In this document: in pieces, positions 6,480-46,694 of the stretch
Position numbering within the stretch: position 1 is the first letter of the stretch
How the letters are laid out: each line of letters begins with the position of its first letter
From: Planctomycetota bacterium
GTDB lineage: Bacteria > Planctomycetota > Phycisphaerae > Phycisphaerales > SM1A02
DNA length: 64,000 nt
Assembly (NCBI GenBank): GCA_022562915.1
Contig: JADFOJ010000003.1
Coordinates: forward strand, 1 to 64,000
Direction of reading: 5' to 3'
Made by a program: the position numbers and the translations under genes
Notes under the pieces: generated by a model
Seen by the model: the letters and a program-made list of their open reading frames with translations, nothing else
Told to the model about the DNA's origin: nothing
The model's database searches: none

Positions 6480-6520
6480 ACCGGGTCTCTTTTTCGCGCT
6501 TCGCGAAAAAGAAACCCGGT
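6480..6520. repeat. Palindromic repeat, ACCGGGT-type copy 1
   Basis: Arms 6480-6498 and 6502-6520 pair over 19 bp with one mismatch (ACCGGGT...TTTTTCGCG, CTT loop). It is related to the palindrome at 6610-6656 and shares the ACCGGG element with the one at 14971-15096. It lies just upstream of the Cys-rich gene and overlaps the expected -35 region of that gene. Confidence 0.75.
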
Positions 6521-6609
6521 CTCCGTTCCTTTAACTCCTTCTCACGCCCACCCTCTCACACCCCCCCTTGCGCACCCCCCCCTTTCGCGAAGCGCGAATA
6601 AGGAAGTAA

Positions 6610-6656
6610 TAGACCGGGTCTCGTTTTCGCGAAGCGCGAAAAGGAGACCCGGTCTA
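6610..6656. repeat. Palindromic repeat, ACCGGGT-type copy 2, containing the trmB stop
   Basis: Arms TAGACCGGGTCTCGTTTTCG... (6610-6631) and its complement (6635-6656) pair over 22 bp with one mismatch and a 3-nt loop. The right arm carries the trmB stop codon (TAG at 6656-6654 on the minus strand). The 90 nt between this and copy 1 are C-rich and hold a third short CGCGAAGCGCG. It may act as a transcription terminator for trmB. Confidence 0.8.
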
Positions 6657-14965: not shown

Positions 14966-14970
14966 CCCGG

Positions 14971-15096
14971 CTGAGCCCGTGAGGGGAAGAAGAAAATAGA
15001 CCGGGAGTATTTTTCGGGCTGCGGTCGCCGCGCAACAGCGGGCCACCGGCCGAAAATTACTCCCGGTCTATTTTCTTCTTCCCCTCACGGGCTCAG
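14971..15096. repeat. 126-bp inverted repeat between convergent genes
   Basis: Arms 14971-15018 and 15049-15096 match almost perfectly: the first 40 bp are identical in inverted order, including GAGGGGAAGAAGAAAATAGA and CCGGGAGTA. The right arm contains the last codons and stop of pdxH (15085-15087); the left arm repeats that sequence directly after the PilZ gene. It shares TAGACCGGG with the palindrome at 6610-6656. As RNA from either side it would form a long hairpin, probably a bidirectional terminator. Confidence 0.9.
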
Positions 15097-15690
15097 CCGC
15101 TGGATCGCCCACCCACCCTGGTCGAGACGCGTGTAGATCGCCCGGTCGTGCACGCGATCCAGCCGTCCCTGCCAGAACTCGATCCGCTGCAGGGCGACCC
15201 TGTATCCGCCCCAGTGCGGCGGACGCGGCACGGGGGCCCCTTCGAAGCGGCGTGCGGCCTCGGCCACGGCGGCCTCGAGGGCCGCGCGATTCTCGACCGG
15301 TTGCGACTGCCGGCTGGCCCAGGCACCCAGTTGTGCGCCGCGGGGCCGGCCGGCGAAGTACGCATCGCTCTCGGCGTCGTCCACGTGGCTGACGCTGCCC
15401 TCGATGCAGATCTGGCGGAGCAGCGAGTCCCAGTGCAGCAGCAGGGCCGCCGGCGAGCCGGAATCGAGCGCCACGCCCTTGCGGCTCCGGCGATTCGTGT
15501 AGAAGACGGCGCCTCGCTCGTCGAAACCCTTGAGCAGGACGGTCCGCAACGACAGGCTGCCGTCAGGATCCACCGTCGCCAGCGACATCGCATGGGGATT
15601 GATCAGCGCCGTTGTCGCCGCCACCTCCAGCCAGCATTGGACCTGGGCGACCGGATCGGCGGGAGGATTGTCAAAGTCCATATCCGTCAT
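15085..15690 (-). CDS. pdxH: Pyridoxamine 5'-phosphate oxidase
   Basis: 201 residues. PdxH is an FMN enzyme that oxidises PNP/PMP to PLP. Family motifs seen: MSLATVDPDGSLSLRTVLLKG, FYTNRRSRKG for FMN phosphate, ALLLHWDSLLRQICIEG, and the C-terminal PLP-site segment PPHWGGYRV...EFWQGRLDRVHDR. The C-terminus ends RLSP, as in the usual RL.P pattern. An upstream TATAGT (15720-15725 on the minus strand) may be its -10. Its stop lies in the inverted repeat. Confidence 0.96.
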   Translation of the reverse strand: MTDMDFDNPPADPVAQVQCWLEVAATTALINPHAMSLATVDPDGSLSLRTVLLKGFDERGAVFYTNRRSRKGVALDSGSPAALLLHWDSLLRQICIEGSVSHVDDAESDAYFAGRPRGAQLGAWASRQSQPVENRAALEAAVAEAARRFEGAPVPRPPHWGGYRVALQRIEFWQGRLDRVHDRAIYTRLDQGGWAIQRLSP

Positions 15691-19249: not shown

Positions 19250-21028
<1,779 letters not shown>

Positions 21029-21107
21029 GTGCGAATCTCCAATACACGCGCATGACGCGCGTGGCACGGTCGGCGGCAGGGATTCGCCCGGCGTTGGGAA
21101 GATCGTT

Positions 21108-21186
21108 CGCGTTCCCTACGCCGGTGCGAACCGGGTCAGGTTCCGCGGGTGCTTCTCAGCGGCTCGTCAACGACGAACCGCGCCCC
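21108..21186 (-). ncRNA. TPP riboswitch (THI element) of thiC
   Basis: Read on the minus strand, the leader holds the ordered THI-box elements: GCGCGGTTCGTCG, then GCCGCTGAGAAGCACCCGC with the core CUGAGA, GAACCTGACCCGG, and CCGGCGTAGGGAACGCG. CGCGGTTC and GAACGCG close the P1 helix. Binding of TPP should repress thiC; the platform between 21105 and the RBS at ~21037 has no T-run, so control is more likely translational. Exact ends are approximate. Confidence 0.9.
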
Positions 21187-21222
21187 GAGCGAACGGCGGC
21201 AGTATAGCAAGGCAGCCGGGAG

Positions 21223-23388: not shown

Positions 23389-24555
23389 ATGCACATCAAC
23401 GAATCACACAGCATCGCCCGCTTCATGCCCAGTCGATCCGCCCGGCAGATGAACGCTCTCCAGCAGCATCGAACCGCGGATCAGAGCCCGAAGACGGGCG
23501 AGCCACGGGCGGCCGGCATGGCCAGGACGCTCCTTGCCGCGAAACGGACGCTGGCCGCGGCACCGCCCGCGGCGAACCTTCCGGCCGCCGCACAGTCGCT
23601 GCCCACCGGGACGCAGACGATCCAGATGCCCCCGCCCGCGCCACCGTCGTCGCCGGCCGGGAAGCAGACGATCCAGAAGGCCCCGCCGCCCGCCCCACCG
23701 CCGCTGCCGACCGGGCAGCACACGGTCCAGAAGCCCCCGCACCTCAATCCTCTTGAGGCGCTGATAGCCGACTGGGGCAAGTCGGACTCACCATTCGACC
23801 TCGACGGTGACGGCACCGTCGGCATCCTCGACATGCTCCAACTCCTGGCCGAGTGGACCCTCAAGCCGAACGACCCGCCACCGGTGCACCCGGACCCGGG
23901 GGTGACGCCGCCTCCGAAGACGCCTGGCGACGTCGTGAACCCGGACCCACCGCCGTCGAATCCTCTCCAGGACCTGATCGATGCCTGGGGCCAGACGAAC
24001 TCACCTCACGACCTCAACGGTGACGGCACCGTCGGCATCCAGGACCTGCTGGAATTGCTCAAGCGGATGAGCGAGGAATCCGACAAGCCCGACGGCATCG
24101 CGATCGATGCGGCCGACATCGGGCCCTCCGCGATCGACCCGGGCGCCGCCGGCACGCCGCCCGCCAAGACACCGCTGGAGTTGCTGATCGAGGACTGGGG
24201 CCAGTCGGGCTCCCCGTTCGACTTGAACCAGGACGGCACCGTCGGCATTCGCGACATGCTCCTGCTGCTCGCCCAGATGACGAGCTCCCCGCCTCCGCCG
24301 GCCATCCCCGCCATCTCCCACGAACCGGAAAATGGCCGCGAGGTCGGCCGGGGCAGGAGCATCTCGGCAACCTATCACCGCGTAGCCGCCCAGAACATCG
24401 CCCGCGCCCTGGCGCCGCAGATGTCAACGATGCAACCGGGCGAACTCCGCGAGTCGATCCAGGGCTCGAACCTGCCGGACGTGCAGAAGCGCTTCGTCCT
24501 GGACCAGATCGCCGCATTGCATCCCCACGGGCACCACGTCAGCCTCGTCGGCTGA
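23389..24555 (+). CDS. Protein with three dockerin-type EF-hand repeats and no signal peptide
   Basis: 388 residues from ATG 23389 (AGGAG 9 nt upstream). The N-terminus has no signal peptide. Residues ~65-125 are Pro-rich with three copies of a (T/K)Q(T/H)(I/V)Q-PPPAP motif. Then come three calcium-loop units: PFDLDGDGTVGILD, PHDLNGDGTVGIQD and PFDLNQDGTVGIRD, each preceded by WG and followed by LLxLL. A helical C-terminus ends ALHPHGHH. Dockerins normally have two loops and sit on exported enzymes, so a stand-alone three-loop protein is unusual. It may be a scaffold or calcium sensor. Confidence 0.75.
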   Translation: MHINESHSIARFMPSRSARQMNALQQHRTADQSPKTGEPRAAGMARTLLAAKRTLAAAPPAANLPAAAQSLPTGTQTIQMPPPAPPSSPAGKQTIQKAPPPAPPPLPTGQHTVQKPPHLNPLEALIADWGKSDSPFDLDGDGTVGILDMLQLLAEWTLKPNDPPPVHPDPGVTPPPKTPGDVVNPDPPPSNPLQDLIDAWGQTNSPHDLNGDGTVGIQDLLELLKRMSEESDKPDGIAIDAADIGPSAIDPGAAGTPPAKTPLELLIEDWGQSGSPFDLNQDGTVGIRDMLLLLAQMTSSPPPPAIPAISHEPENGREVGRGRSISATYHRVAAQNIARALAPQMSTMQPGELRESIQGSNLPDVQKRFVLDQIAALHPHGHHVSLVG

Positions 24556-24613: not shown

Positions 24614-24615
24614 TT

Positions 24616-24777
24616 TAGAGTGGGTTCACTCCAGGTGTAGCGTTCTGAGTGCGATGCTCTTCGCTGTGGTGGCGCCGCCGGATCGACGGCATATTGCTGA
24701 TATTCCGAGATTCGGCGACGTCACCACAGCGGAGATGATCGTGCTCAGAACGCTACAGATGGAGTGAACCCGCTCTA
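24616..24777. repeat. 162-bp long hairpin element, copy A
   Basis: The two halves pair almost end to end. The outer arms are GGGTTCACTCCA / TGGAGTGAACCC and GTAGCGTTCTGAG / CTCAGAACGCTAC; a middle arm GCTGTGGTG / CACCACAGC and an apical CGGCATAT / ATATTCCG follow. Several mismatches are G-T, compatible with an RNA fold. It ends 2 nt from the oxidoreductase stop. Its core matches the element at 44708-44872 in spacing and sequence although the arms differ. Confidence 0.85.
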
Positions 24778-24779
24778 GC

Positions 24780-25862
24780 TCACACCATTCGCGATCCGGC
24801 CGCCCGGGCGACGACCACGATCTCGTTGGCCGTGCGGACCGCCGCGAACCCCGCCTGGACGTCGACGGTGGGACGCCGCTTCCGGCGAACCGAGTCCAGG
24901 AAGTCCTCGAGCTGCAGCTTGAGCGGCTCGGCGTTGCCGACGTCCAGAAGATCGACCTTGACCAGGCCCAGGTAATCCACGTGGGAAAGGTCCTCGCCCG
25001 CTTCGAGACGCCGGCGCATCTCGGCGATCTGCTCGGCGTTGGCGGTCTTGCGGACGATGGTGCCGCTGCCCTTGACGAAGTCCGCCGACACGTAGGCGTC
25101 TTCGGAGATGAGCCTGATCTTGCGCTCGGTCTTGAGCGCCAGCCGGCTGGCGGTCATGTTCGCGACGCAGCAGACGCCGTCGGGGCCGGCGGGAAAGGTC
25201 AGCCGGGCGTTGCACACGTCCTCCGCCTCCCCGAAGACCGACACCGCGTTCGCCTGGATCTGCTGGGGCTCGGTGCCCAGGAGCATCAGCAGGACATCGA
25301 TGTCGTGGATCATCATGTCCAGGACGACGCCGACGTCCACGCTGCGGAACGTCATCGGGCTGATGCGATCCACCTCGATGAACCTCGGCGAGAAGTTCTC
25401 CAGCGACTGCACCGCGAGCGTCACCGGGTCGTACCGCACGACGTGCCCGACCTGCAGGACCACGCCGGAGCGCTCGGCCGCCTCGGCGATGGCCCGCGCC
25501 TCGTCGAGGTCGGGTGCCAGCGGTTTCTCGATGAGGCAGGGGATCTTCGCCTCCAGCAGCGGCTCCGCCACCGCGCGATGCCACGCCGTGGGAGTGGCGA
25601 TCGTGACCGCATCGGGCCGCGCTTCCACCAGCGCGTCGATGCTCTCGAAGACGCGCGCGCTCCACTTCTGCCGGGCCGCCTCGCAGCGGCGCGGGTCCGT
25701 GTCGAGCACGCCGATGAGCTCGGCACCCTCGATCTCGGTGTACAGCCGGGCGTGGTGGGTACCCATCCGGCCCACGCCCACCACGGCGCAGCGGAGCCGT
25801 CGGCGGTCCTGCCCGACCTGTACCGCGGTCGTCGTGGGGGTTTTCAACGGTGTCTGCGGCAT
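24780..25862 (-). CDS. Gfo/Idh/MocA-family oxidoreductase
   Basis: 360 residues. The N-terminal Rossmann domain has CAVVGVGRMGTHHARLY (GxGxxG near 28) and the family EKPLAPDLDEA motif. The C-terminal domain contains GVVLDMMIHDIDVLLMLLG with the catalytic-site HDID. This resembles UDP-GlcNAc 3-dehydrogenases of the GnnA/WlbA type, but the substrate cannot be fixed from sequence. Upstream TACGAT lies nine nt before the ATG and there is no RBS. The zinc-ribbon gene lies 60 nt upstream on the same strand. Confidence 0.85.
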   Translation of the reverse strand: MPQTPLKTPTTTAVQVGQDRRRLRCAVVGVGRMGTHHARLYTEIEGAELIGVLDTDPRRCEAARQKWSARVFESIDALVEARPDAVTIATPTAWHRAVAEPLLEAKIPCLIEKPLAPDLDEARAIAEAAERSGVVLQVGHVVRYDPVTLAVQSLENFSPRFIEVDRISPMTFRSVDVGVVLDMMIHDIDVLLMLLGTEPQQIQANAVSVFGEAEDVCNARLTFPAGPDGVCCVANMTASRLALKTERKIRLISEDAYVSADFVKGSGTIVRKTANAEQIAEMRRRLEAGEDLSHVDYLGLVKVDLLDVGNAEPLKLQLEDFLDSVRRKRRPTVDVQAGFAAVRTANEIVVVARAAGSRMV

Positions 25863-42111: not shown

Positions 42112-43029
42112 ATGGCGATTGGCATGGCCGGCAGGAGCACGAAGAAAAAGAAGAGTCGCCAGAACGTCAAGCGCCACTGGAAACCGTCGCTCGGCCGTTT
42201 CGTCGAGCATTACGACCGCAGGGGCGAGCACGCGCGACGCAAGCAAGAGAGGGCCGCGCGCCGGAGCATCGAGGCACTCTCGAAGACGACCCGCCGTCCG
42301 CGGATGGGCCGCCGGCTGGTGATCTCGGCGTGCGTCTTTGTCGCCATGCTCGCGGTCATCGGCGGTTTCCGCCTCGCCCGCCATGGGTCCGGCGTCGTCG
42401 AGTACGACGTGCTCCAGGCGAGGAAGCCTGCCATCGTCAAGCTCGATCACGGCCCGGTGACGCGGGTGGTGACCGCAACGGCCGCCGAGGTCGACGCGAT
42501 GGTCCGCGCGGCGGTCGCCTCGGTGCGCTCGACCGGCGTGGAGCACCCGGACCGGTTGATCGTGATCGACCCGGTCGCGCCGGCCATCAGCTTCGGCTCG
42601 CTGGCCAGGATTGACCAGCGCGTGTTGCGGCGGCACGCCGGGCCCGACGCGGCGCACGTCTACGAGACGGCCGTCGCGCGGTTCCTGGAGCGGGTCGTCG
42701 ATGGCCTGGCCAATCGCCGCGTCAGCGTCCTGGGGCTGCCCGTTGAGCCGGGGGCGGCCGGGATCGAAGCGGCGCGACGCACCAACCGCAGGTATGGCAA
42801 CGTCATCGAACGGCTCGACCACCTCGTGACGGCGCACGTCTTCTTCCGCACCGAGTCGTGGGTCACCGAGCAGCGCATGGTCGAAGAAGCTATCCCGGAG
42901 GCACTGCACCACGCCGGCACCCGCCCGATCGTCTTCCGGCTCAACCTCGAGTGGCGCGTGCTCATCGACCGGGCCGAAGTCGCCCGGTACCGCCGCGCGG
43001 AGTGGAACACGTTGGCCCCCGGTGGATAA
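42112..43029 (+). CDS. Hypothetical membrane-anchored protein
   Basis: 305 residues. The first ~60 are very basic (KKKKSRQNVKRHW, ARRKQERAARRS), followed by one membrane helix near 66-88 (RLVISACVFVAMLAVIGGF) and a ~215-residue soluble domain. No family was recognised. No RBS was found for ATG 42112 or 42124. The last three codons and stop lie within the inverted repeat at 43021-43085, which it shares with the convergent methyltransferase gene. Confidence 0.65.
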   Translation: MAIGMAGRSTKKKKSRQNVKRHWKPSLGRFVEHYDRRGEHARRKQERAARRSIEALSKTTRRPRMGRRLVISACVFVAMLAVIGGFRLARHGSGVVEYDVLQARKPAIVKLDHGPVTRVVTATAAEVDAMVRAAVASVRSTGVEHPDRLIVIDPVAPAISFGSLARIDQRVLRRHAGPDAAHVYETAVARFLERVVDGLANRRVSVLGLPVEPGAAGIEAARRTNRRYGNVIERLDHLVTAHVFFRTESWVTEQRMVEEAIPEALHHAGTRPIVFRLNLEWRVLIDRAEVARYRRAEWNTLAPGG

Positions 43030-43085
43030 AGGGGACTGATTTATGTACCGGCGGCCGGTAAATGAATCAGTCCCCTTTATCCACC
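43021..43085. repeat. 65-bp inverted repeat supplying both convergent stop codons
   Basis: Arms 43021-43053 and 43053-43085 match over 33 bp with two mismatches (GGTGGATAAAGGGGACTGAT at the outer end, ACCGGC at the centre). The stop of the plus gene (TAA 43027-43029) and of the minus gene (TAA 43079-43077) are the same bases in the two arms, so both proteins end in the same codons, GGT GGA TAA. Probably a bidirectional terminator or a REP-like mobile palindrome. Confidence 0.9.
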
Positions 43086-43832: not shown

Positions 43833-44711
43833 ATGACGAAAGTCGCCTCCGGGCCGGGGCTTGCCACCAAGGCCATCGCCGGCGCCGAGCCGGGCAAGCC
43901 GGTCACCCTCAGGACGATCCGTCGCTTCGTGGCCGAGGGCCGGAAGTTCGCCTGTCTAACCTGCTACGACGCCACGACCGCGCGCTGGCTTCAACGGGCC
44001 GGTATCCCCGTCTTACTCGTGGGCGACACGGCCGCGGAGATGATCCTGGGGTACCCCGGCACGATCCACGCGCCGCTGGACTTTCTCATCACGCTCACCG
44101 CGGCGGTGCGGCGCGGTGCGCCGGACACGTTCGTCATGGGCGACATGCCCTTCATGAGCTACCAGGCCGACGATGCGGAGGCGCTGCGCAATGCAGGCCG
44201 CTTTCTGACCGACGGACACGCCGACGCGGTCAAGCTCGAGGTGGACCGCTCCTGGGCGGGGCTCGTCGAAAAGATGGCCCGCGCCGGCATCCCGGTGGTC
44301 GCGCACATCGGGGCGCGGCCGCAGCTCTCCAAGCGCCGCGGCGGCTACGGTTCGACGGGGCGCACTGCATCGCAGGGCAGACAGCTCGTCGCCGATGCCG
44401 TGGCCCTCGAAGCGGCCGGCGCGACGATGATCCTGATCGAAGCGACGCCGGTCGAGATCTCCCAGCGGATCGTCGAGAAGACGACGGTCCCGGTGATCGG
44501 CTGCGGCGCGGGGCCCGCCTGCCACGGGCAGATCGTCGTCACCCAGGACCTGCTGGGGCTCACCGACTGGCAGCCCGGCTTCGCGCGGCCGATCACGCGG
44601 CTCGGTGACCAGCTCGTCGACGCCGCCACGCGATGGGCGGGCATGGTGCATGCATCCGAACTGGGTGAGCACCCGTACAGCATGTCAGATGGAGAGGCGG
44701 AGAAGCTCTAG
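43833..44711 (+). CDS. panB: 3-methyl-2-oxobutanoate hydroxymethyltransferase
   Basis: 292 residues from ATG 43833. PanB makes ketopantoate from ketoisovalerate and methylene-THF. Motifs: FACLTCYDATTARWL, GDTAAEMILGYPGTI, VMGDMPFMSYQ, VVAHIGARPQ and VIGCGAGPACHGQIVVTQDLLG. The start has no RBS but TACACT at 43821-43826 ends 6 nt before it. The TAG stop forms the outer tip of the hairpin element at 44708-44872. Confidence 0.97.
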   Translation: MTKVASGPGLATKAIAGAEPGKPVTLRTIRRFVAEGRKFACLTCYDATTARWLQRAGIPVLLVGDTAAEMILGYPGTIHAPLDFLITLTAAVRRGAPDTFVMGDMPFMSYQADDAEALRNAGRFLTDGHADAVKLEVDRSWAGLVEKMARAGIPVVAHIGARPQLSKRRGGYGSTGRTASQGRQLVADAVALEAAGATMILIEATPVEISQRIVEKTTVPVIGCGAGPACHGQIVVTQDLLGLTDWQPGFARPITRLGDQLVDAATRWAGMVHASELGEHPYSMSDGEAEKL

Positions 44712-44872
44712 TGCTCTGTCACGGCCGAATCTTGGCGTTGGACCGGACCTCATTCCGTCTGGCGGCGTTGCCGCTCCTCGCCGTATCTTTGGATATGCCT
44801 TCGTCGCGTCGCCTTGCCAGACGAAACGATCTCGCGCCCCAACCCCAATATTCGACCGTGACAGAGCACTAG
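44708..44872. repeat. 165-bp long hairpin element, copy B
   Basis: Outer arms CTAGTGCTCTGTCACGG / CCGTGACAGAGCACTAG are perfect over 17 bp; CGAATCTTGG / CCAATATTCG and CGTCTGGC / GCCAGACG continue the stem with mismatches, and an apical CCGTATC...GATATGCC closes it. The left tip contains the panB stop, and the right end is 1 nt from the ATG of the HtrA gene. The core aligns with copy A at 24616-24777 with paired changes on both strands. Confidence 0.9.
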
Positions 44873-44873
44873 C

Positions 44874-46694
44874 ATGCGAAGGTTCAACAGCTACGGGCCG
44901 AGCCTGATCGTGCTCGGCACCGCCATCGTCATCCTGCTTGCCGGACCCAGCGCCGTCTGGCGACTGACCTACGAGCAGACCAGGGCCCGCATCATCCAGG
45001 CGAGCGAGGCGCTTGACGACAACCCGATTCTTCAGCAACTCAGCCAGGCGTATCGCGACATCGCCACGCTCGTCGAGCCGTCCGTCGTGCACATCTCCAC
45101 CGAGCGGCCGATGACCGTCCGGCTCGGCGAACGGCGGTACGTCGGTTCGTCGGGATCGGGCTGGATCTACGATGAGGCGGGTCACGTGGTCACGAACTAC
45201 CACGTCATCCAGGATGCCCAGCGCATCGAAGTGCAATTGCACAACGGCATCATTCGCGCAGCCGAGGTCGTCGGCTACGACCAGTCCACGGACATCGCCG
45301 TGATCAAGATCGAGCCGGGCCGCCTCTTTCCTGCGCTGATCGCCAAGACCGACGACAACGGCGCCGCAGCGGTCAAACAGGGCGACCTCGTGTTCGCGTT
45401 CGGCTCGCCCTTCGACTTTCGCTTCTCGATGTCCTCCGGCGTCGTCTCCGGCATCGGCCGCTCCGTCGGCGTGATCCGGGACGAACGAGGCGTGCCCATG
45501 GGCTACGAGAACTTCATCCAGGTGGACGCCGCCATTAATCCAGGCAATTCCGGCGGCCCGCTGACCAACGCGCGGGGACGGGTCATCGGCATGAACACGG
45601 CGATCGCGACCGGCCGGGGCAGTCGCCTCGACGAGGGACAGTTCGCGGGGATCGGCCTGGCGATTCCGATCGACATGATCGAGCCGGTCGTCGAGCAGAT
45701 CATCGACTCGGGCTCCGTGCAGAAGGGCTTCCTGGGCGTCAGCGTCCGGGACCTCCAGGACACCATCGCCATGGAGTTGTCTCTGATCGACTTCAGCGGC
45801 TACGGGTTGACGGTCGGGCGGGTCGACGTGAACAATCCCGCGTTCGAAGCCGGGCTGGAACTCGGTGACGTGATCACCGCCATCAACGACCAACAGGTGA
45901 GAACGCAGCGGGACCTTGACAGGGCCACGGCCGGTGTCGGCTCCGGTGAGACCGTCGAGCTGGCGGTGTGGCGGTACGACCCGCGGACCGACCGCGCCGA
46001 GCGGGTCCAGATCAGCCTCCCCGGGGTCGTCGCCGCCAACGGGTTCCGCGGCGTGTGGCTGCTCGAGCTCGACGACCACATTGCGGACTGGCTGGCGCTG
46101 CTGGGATTCACCGGCCGCGGCGTACGTATCTCGCGGCTGGAACTCGACAAGCCGGCCCGGCGGGCGGGGCTGCGCTACCGCGACATCGTCACACAGATCA
46201 ACGGCGTGCCCGTGAGATCGGTACCTCAACTGCGATCGAAGATATCCTCCATGCGGCCGGGCGAGGTCGTCCAGGTAAAGCTCTGGCGGTACGAGCCCGA
46301 GCGCGGTCACGGCCGCGAGATGGTCTTCGACGTCGAGCTGGGCCGGCTGGACATGGTCCGTATGACCGGTGTGATCCCTCCCGATCAGCCGGACAACTCC
46401 CTCGCAGGCCTGGGACTGGCCCGCATCGCGACCAACACGCCGGAACTGTCCGCCCGGTACGGTACGAGGTACCTCGCCGGCGTTCTCGTCGAGGAGGTCG
46501 TCAAAGGATCGTCGCTCGAGGGCCGGATCGAGCCCGGGTCGGTCATCGTCGCCGTCATGGATCGCATGGTGACCGACGTCGACGACTTCTTCGACCTGCT
46601 GCGCCGGTACGATCTCCGCCGGCCGCGCGGTGTGCGGGTGACCTTCGTCGCGACCGACGGCTCGCGGAACACCACGTACCTCGTGATCGAGTAA
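44874..46694 (+). CDS. HtrA/DegP-type serine protease with three PDZ-like domains
   Basis: 606 residues. An N-terminal membrane helix (residues 9-28) anchors the protein. The trypsin-like domain has His110 (TNYHV), Asp140 (STDIAV) and Ser226 (NPGNSGGP). Three PDZ-like domains follow: near 280-375 (GFLGVSVRDL...AFEAGLELGDVITAI), 380-485 (RRAGLRYRDIVTQINGVPV) and 495-606. Two PDZ domains are usual. It should degrade misfolded proteins in the periplasm. There is no RBS: the start directly follows the hairpin at 44708-44872. Confidence 0.9.
   Translation: MRRFNSYGPSLIVLGTAIVILLAGPSAVWRLTYEQTRARIIQASEALDDNPILQQLSQAYRDIATLVEPSVVHISTERPMTVRLGERRYVGSSGSGWIYDEAGHVVTNYHVIQDAQRIEVQLHNGIIRAAEVVGYDQSTDIAVIKIEPGRLFPALIAKTDDNGAAAVKQGDLVFAFGSPFDFRFSMSSGVVSGIGRSVGVIRDERGVPMGYENFIQVDAAINPGNSGGPLTNARGRVIGMNTAIATGRGSRLDEGQFAGIGLAIPIDMIEPVVEQIIDSGSVQKGFLGVSVRDLQDTIAMELSLIDFSGYGLTVGRVDVNNPAFEAGLELGDVITAINDQQVRTQRDLDRATAGVGSGETVELAVWRYDPRTDRAERVQISLPGVVAANGFRGVWLLELDDHIADWLALLGFTGRGVRISRLELDKPARRAGLRYRDIVTQINGVPVRSVPQLRSKISSMRPGEVVQVKLWRYEPERGHGREMVFDVELGRLDMVRMTGVIPPDQPDNSLAGLGLARIATNTPELSARYGTRYLAGVLVEEVVKGSSLEGRIEPGSVIVAVMDRMVTDVDDFFDLLRRYDLRRPRGVRVTFVATDGSRNTTYLVIE

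Follow-up and report, generated by a model that had tools for sequence, protein, structure and literature searches.

Element A, a hairpin of 162 bp in the genome of a planctomycete, belongs to a large family of non-autonomous MITEs of ~160 bp in which a conserved, strand-specific hairpin core is set within exchangeable ends and probably gives rise to a transcribed RNA that a host protein would bind or process. At the level of the sequences themselves, the following traits of the family are shown: (i) dispersed copies; (ii) inverted-repeat ends; (iii) CTAG-like targets with 4-bp duplications; (iv) a shared core; and (v) changes that are compensatory, or that preserve G-U pairs, on one strand. 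A preliminary description of the same DNA had offered a MITE and an RNA element as separate readings, and both hold together: the former agrees with the terminal inverted repeats, the 4-bp duplications and a cognate IS1182-like insertion sequence, and the latter with strand-consistent G-U pairs and conserved non-canonical internal loops.

The window, that is, the whole stretch of 64,000 nucleotides analysed here, is contig 146 in a draft genome of 153 contigs and 3.6 Mb, and contains element A together with a second hairpin, element B (Table 1). Element A had been described as folding from end to end, which is borne out by folding against shuffled sequences: the predicted rod reaches -128.9 kcal/mol on the + strand (z -18.9; 0 of 200 shuffles equal) and -107.9 kcal/mol on the - strand. 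Its arm mismatches are indeed mostly G-T, with 8 G-T and 1 A-C on the + strand of this copy, and the second hairpin is real as well (z -9.3). As proposed, the cores of both hairpins are homologous; they lie, however, on opposite strands of the window, with matches to the covariance model R1 on the + strand in A and on the - strand in B, and they look alike on the same strand because of the palindrome. The differences between the outer arms of A and B had been taken for compensatory change, and this does not stand: the arms are different exchangeable modules, transposon-like ends with separate relatives of their own, and what looked like paired change between the copies in the window is the replacement of one module by another. 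Genuine compensatory changes are found inside the core and among relatives.

Table 1. Position, strand and basis of the features of elements A and B in the window.
Feature	Position	Strand	Basis
Element A, complete, 162 bp	24616..24777	+ (strand folding best as RNA)	Fold and genome copies
Element A, conserved structured core	24651..24742	+	Model R1 match, 95.7 bits
Element A, left flank TTAG, target-like tetranucleotide, TA centre	24615..24618		Sequence
Element A, right flank CTAG	24775..24778		Sequence
Element B, 165 bp including CTAG flanks	44708..44872	- (RNA-like strand)	Fold and genome copies
Element B, conserved structured core	44744..44835	-	Model R1 match, 77.1 bits
Element B, internal loop, 5' side AAGGCG (AAGGAG in other copies)	44810..44815	-	Sequence; A3/A4 columns
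Element B, internal loop, 3' side CAACGC (CGACGC in other copies)	44765..44770	-	Sequence; A3/A4 columns
Element B, left CTAG target duplication	44708..44711		Sequence
Element B, right CTAG target duplication	44869..44872		Sequence

In its own genome, element A is present in 10 complete copies, 95-99% identical, and in two more cut by contig ends, while element B has four copies (two complete and two cut). A third set, C, comprises ~24 copies with ends CAGCCCGTTGAAGAAGT, and only the central 45-65 bp are in common. Several contigs of this genome stop within copies. The preliminary description had staked its reading on further copies in related genomes and had proposed a core-based covariance model for finding them; many were found, by DNA query and by model, among relatives and across the phylum. 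Used as a DNA query, element A recovered copies 82-87% identical in a single genome (G020) from the same family, and model R1, built on the core, detected the family in 7 of 61 relatives, with 51 matches in the own genome, at least 70 in G020 and 14 in each of three other genomes; the 24 genomes examined from the order's other families gave no match. A broader covariance model (R2), run on 179 genomes spread over Planctomycetota, found the family in 28, mostly multicopy, 19 of which, the own genome included, had E < 1e-6. The distribution over the phylum is patchy; the R2 counts per genome are lower bounds (23 candidates per genome were scored) and isolated weak matches may be due to chance.

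A search for the core pattern in named genomes returned hairpins in Planctomycetota MAGs and one more (L261) in a bin labelled 'bacterium' that belongs to the same assembly series, and none of the matches outside those genomes folded as such elements. At L261 (~5978) and L262 (~5038, reverse strand), in two bins of one assembly series, a core variant is found with ends like CCAGCGCGGCAAGCC..GATCGCCCGCTGG and without CTAG flanks. Phages and plasmids searched with element A gave no match. In Rfam, no family reaches its gathering score, the best being MIR842, a generic long hairpin, with 38.4 versus 85 bits. The elements, of ~160 bp and dispersed, have neither a transposase gene nor, as far as peptide changes can be judged by eye, a conserved ORF. 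A small coded peptide was considered, since some copies in G020 and G021 have AAGGAG, 8 nt and ATG followed by a frame of ~30 codons that ends at the terminal TAG; it was rejected by inspection, as the ATG is gone in most types, the frame varies by type and the changes look mostly non-synonymous.

About a dozen kinds of ends surround the core across the phylum. In the home family, the following can be differentiated: (i) A, AGAGCNGNTTCACTCC; (ii) B, in the forms TGCTCTGTCACGG, TGGTGTGAGTCA and TGGTGTCCGCC; (iii) C, as given above, plus drifted forms; (iv) D, GGTCCTGTTTGACGG; (v) F, CAGGCCGCTAAGCAAACC; and (vi) type H. Further ends across the phylum are, for instance, TGTCCTGGATC, GTGGTGTGATTC, AAGCGGGTTCGG and AGAAGTGGTTTCATAAG. 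One locus (L069) has C-type ends joined to an A-like middle, another (L072) has D-like ends on that same middle, and the apex variants GATATTCCG, GATACGTCG and GATACAGCG are distributed across end types. The same core in different arms, these two joins and the apex variants therefore imply that ends and core were exchanged. Evidently, the ends drift faster than the core. The exact C-end pattern, searched in 300 genomes of the order, is present only in the own genome and at one stray site. Hairpins of 28-35 bp that consist of C-type ends only (CAGCCCGAATGACTTCTTCAACGGGCTG) were also observed (L111-L113, L115-L119; own genome, e.g., C64:57149, C65:53270, C100:3836 and C40:3495), most of them bounded left and right by CTAG and many abutting a TAG stop codon; a cryptic CAGCCCG in the right arm may serve as their inner left end, which would make them a minimal mobile unit.

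The flanks of the elements form pairs such as TTAG/TTAG, CTAA/CTAA, CCAT/CCAT, CCAG/CCAG and CTGG/CTGG, and many are CTAG/CTAG. In type C they are CTAG or near it, and 15 of 46 pairs are identical, versus 8.4 by permutation (p 0.002). The exact unusual pairs of this type show the 4-bp target-site duplication that the preliminary description had suggested looking for, established statistically rather than copy by copy because many flank pairs differ. In type A, the agreement is in TA only (TA/TA at most), and at one locus (L210) two side-by-side elements have one CTAG in common. CTAG occurs 14 times in the window versus 195 expected, a 14-fold depletion that may explain the frequent mutation of one flank. 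Three of these 14 sites flank elements A and B; GATC is found 700 times and TCGA 593 times over positions 1-64000, against the depleted CTAG.

The matching transposase that had likewise been suggested was found, for type C only, in IS1182-like insertion sequences. The own genome carries a complete one on contig C57, with C-type end (CAGCCCGTGGTGAAAGT..ACTTCTGCCACGGGCTG, CTAG on both sides) and a transposase of 466 aa with DUF772 and DDE_Tnp_1_6. Another complete one (G412:C71; CAGCCCGTTGAAGAAGTG..CACTTTTTCAACGGGCTG, flanked by CTAG and TTAG; ends CAGCCCGTTGAAGAAGTG/CAGCCCGTTGAAAAAGTG) has the same end as the C-type elements and a transposase 57% identical to that of C57. In the C57 insertion sequence (L216, 1324-2724), the right CTAG flank provides the TAG that ends the transposase frame, and the last codons (TSATGC and stop) lie inside the inverted repeat. 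Membership of the IS1182 family was judged with NCBIfam NF033551 (cut-off 270 bits): the C57 protein has its best match there but, at 166 bits, misses the cut-off, hence the name 'IS1182-like' for the C-type partner. The cut-off is passed by G026 (351 bits) and by C58 of the own genome (389 bits); the former is a bona fide IS1182 with other ends, inserted in CTAG next to an apparent C-type element (weak core match). The insertion sequences searched with the core model have no strong core match inside. No cognate insertion sequences were found for the A, B and D ends, and the G020 assembly, with its more than 70 copies, has no DUF772 transposase and a single DDE_Tnp_1 without matching ends around it; the partners of these ends may be lost or unassembled. 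The C-type elements have the ends and CTAG-like targets of complete IS1182-like elements and differ in lacking a transposase gene. Being short, dispersed, bounded by terminal inverted repeats and devoid of a transposase gene and, in type C, having a target-site duplication and ends in common with an autonomous element, the elements are, on these traits, MITEs.

The life of such an element would comprise several steps: (i) DDE transposases of insertion sequences would recognise the ends and move the element DNA in trans; (ii) the shared core would be the site of recombination or template switching through which new ends are acquired, with a change of the transposase used; (iii) the element would be transcribed, its RNA strand folding into an extended rod interrupted by two internal loops rich in G.A; (iv) a host protein (e.g., a double-strand RNA-binding protein or RNase III) would bind or process the rod; and (v), the least certain step, this binding or processing might make insertion tolerable at gene ends or aid the persistence of the element. 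Of the possible roles of the RNA, the most likely is that of a rod-like transcript which a host protein binds or processes, comparable to NEMIS and ERIC (PMC2229807; PMC10969869). Less probably, the core is a selfish RNA, structured, strand-specific and spread over the phylum, that rides on DNA transposons and swaps terminal repeats according to the DDE transposase available, its fold being needed for spread or persistence and its loops being bound by a host or transposon protein.

Copies are located at gene ends and between convergent genes, and none was found between divergent genes, the direction of neighbouring genes being assigned with a simple codon score. Element A itself has convergent neighbours: a gene for a dockerin-domain protein, which ends at 24555, and, on the - strand, one for a Gfo/Idh/MocA oxidoreductase, the stop codon of which begins at 24780. 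At element B, the TAG stop codon (44709-44711) of a + strand gene falls within the CTAG flank, and the other neighbour is a trypsin-like protease gene (named from its sequence) with its ATG at 44874. These positions, together with the fact that the target CTAG often includes the TAG stop codon, would suit a host-recruited device spread by transposition, either a transcription terminator working in both directions or a stabiliser of mRNA 3' ends. Nevertheless, such a role is rather doubtful: there is neither a T-tract nor a terminator call, the strand bias described below is not expected of a bidirectional device, and the position is equally explained by the CTAG target plus selection against insertion elsewhere. 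The orientation of the copies relative to neighbouring genes is mixed, and therefore argues against a simple sense 3'-UTR role; no promoter-like or terminator-like site was found near element A.

Selection for a fold had been suspected from the outset, and the covariation among aligned copies by which that suspicion was to be judged is far above both shuffled and slid controls. In the home family (alignment A3, 33 sequences), 19 of 27 pairs have undergone double change, with a covariation score of 0.438 versus 0.156 when shuffled and at most 0.109 when slid. In other families (A4, 24 sequences outside the training of the model), the figures are 22 of 27 pairs and 0.695 versus 0.184 and at most 0.104; the A4 alignment was fitted to the structure and its counts lean towards the model, whereas the slid control remains far below them. 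Double changes also arise by template switching between the arms of a palindrome, and covariation by itself is therefore no proof.

Template switching is a known process, and the elements might be plain MITEs without RNA function, whose arms are kept by this form of palindrome correction and by the matching of ends for the transposase. Near-perfect arms and double changes are then explained without RNA selection, and the ends do match those of IS1182-like insertion sequences. What separates this reading from selection on one strand is the direction of the mismatches: when one arm of a palindrome mutates, the mismatch is G-T on one strand and A-C on the other, and without single-strand selection the two kinds should be equally frequent on the strand that the core defines. 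Counted on the GGCATAT strand, and only in arms outside the core, G-T and A-C stand at 251:34 over the six home-family arm types (A 70:4, B 16:0, C 70:27, D 50:2, F 23:0 and H 22:1; one A copy with an atypical first base is filed under C and two B copies are mostly armless, the result being unaffected). In other families of the phylum the counts are 57:12; of 15 informative elements, 14 are positive (sign test, p 0.0005), and this element-level test is the most trustworthy because cells share ancestry. Changes private to one copy are biased too (48:15), more weakly in the youngest sets, and the GGCATAT strand folds better in 37 of the 37 copies first examined. Palindrome repair cannot, on these counts, explain the same-strand excess of G-T over A-C, and it also leaves unexplained the conserved bases of the non-pairing loops and the exchange described next; plain MITEs are already disfavoured, and improbable.

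Two internal loops are conserved throughout the phylum, AAGG(A/C)G opposite C(A/G)ACGC and CCGNAG opposite CGAG, and both contain near-invariant G.A pairs. At one pair of loop positions, adjoining a nearly invariant G.A, the 57 sequences have A.G in 28 cases, C.A in 21, U-A in 4, C-G in 3 and A.A in 1. This non-canonical exchange points to a three-dimensional motif of RNA (or single-stranded DNA). Taken together, the changes show selection to keep one strand foldable, as expected of a functional RNA. G-T pairs better than A-C in single-stranded DNA as well, and for that reason RNA, as the preferred of the two, is what we infer. The chief other explanation of the strand bias is that a Y1 enzyme recognises single-stranded DNA, and a REP-type system had been among the first suggestions: a strand-specific hairpin with conserved mismatches is a signature of REP/RAYT-like systems (PMC3733652), where an HUH/Y1 or similar nuclease would recognise a folded single DNA strand, and Y1 transposases are present in 5 of 7 genomes searched, but the reading is disfavoured by G020, which has the most copies and no detectable Y1 transposase, by the weak core matches, none of them strong, beside Y1 genes, and by long inverted-repeat ends with duplicated CTAG-like flanks, typical of DDE transposition, so that it is unlikely. 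The attC, kink-turn and bridge-RNA ideas, considered as further readings, found no support.

Bacterial MITEs are usually viewed as decayed insertion sequences, and their RNA folds as by-products of the inverted repeats. A fold conserved on one strand across a phylum, while the transposition ends around it are repeatedly replaced, separates the passenger from its vehicle and provides a testable case in which the RNA structure is what is selected. The analysis also yields a covariance model for this multicopy RNA, which is absent from Rfam and interrupts contigs in planctomycete assemblies.

Among known systems, ERIC, NEMIS (Correia) and YPAL are, like the planctomycete elements, non-autonomous, ~100-170 bp long and endowed with terminal inverted repeats, TA-type ends and a long RNA stem-loop. 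We know of no sequence relation between them and the planctomycete elements, in which, unlike in those systems, the core is common to many end types and the non-canonical loops are conserved phylum-wide. Some ERIC, NEMIS or YPAL elements serve as substrates of RNase III or influence the stability of mRNAs (PMC2229807; PMC10969869). The bcr elements of the Bacillus cereus group are MITE-like repeats, often transcribed and some with conserved RNA structures; bcr1, bcr2 and bcr3 are MITE-like and bcr10 and bcr18 are considered to be functional RNAs (PMC3446304), whereas the planctomycete element combines both properties in one. Streptococcal BOX elements are modular, and in S. suis the end pairs boxA/C or boxE/F flank the same type of boxB (PMC3049150), a precedent for exchangeable ends; BOX, however, has tandem internal boxB modules and is confined to one genus, while the planctomycete elements have a single hairpin, insertion-sequence-like ends and a phylum-wide range. 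The QMITEs of Coxiella burnetii are MITEs that yield small RNAs with long stems (PMC5896051), a few sRNAs from single insertions, in contrast to a fold under selection in a whole family. RNA-folding MITEs (ERIC, NEMIS, bcr, QMITE, BOX) and exchangeable ends (S. suis BOX, PMC3049150) are, in consequence, already known. As far as the open literature shows, and leaving out of the comparison Rhodopirellula-1, a candidate motif of 2010 from Planctomycetes and Proteobacteria (PMC2864571), the combination of a phylum-wide, strand-selected core with non-canonical loops and repeated end replacement is new.

The window has other structured features. A long inverted repeat at 14968-15099 (57-nt arms, 93% complementary, 18-nt spacer) is AT-richer than its surroundings and, by eye, unrelated to elements A and B. 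Two more, at 6480-6653 (43-nt arms 88 nt apart) and at 43021-43085 (32-nt arms 1 nt apart, GGTGGATAAAGGGGACTGATT..), possibly belong to other repeat families. Finally, a TPP riboswitch (RF00059, 59.9 bits) is found at 21095-21197 on the - strand, upstream of a thiC-like ORF (19250-21067).
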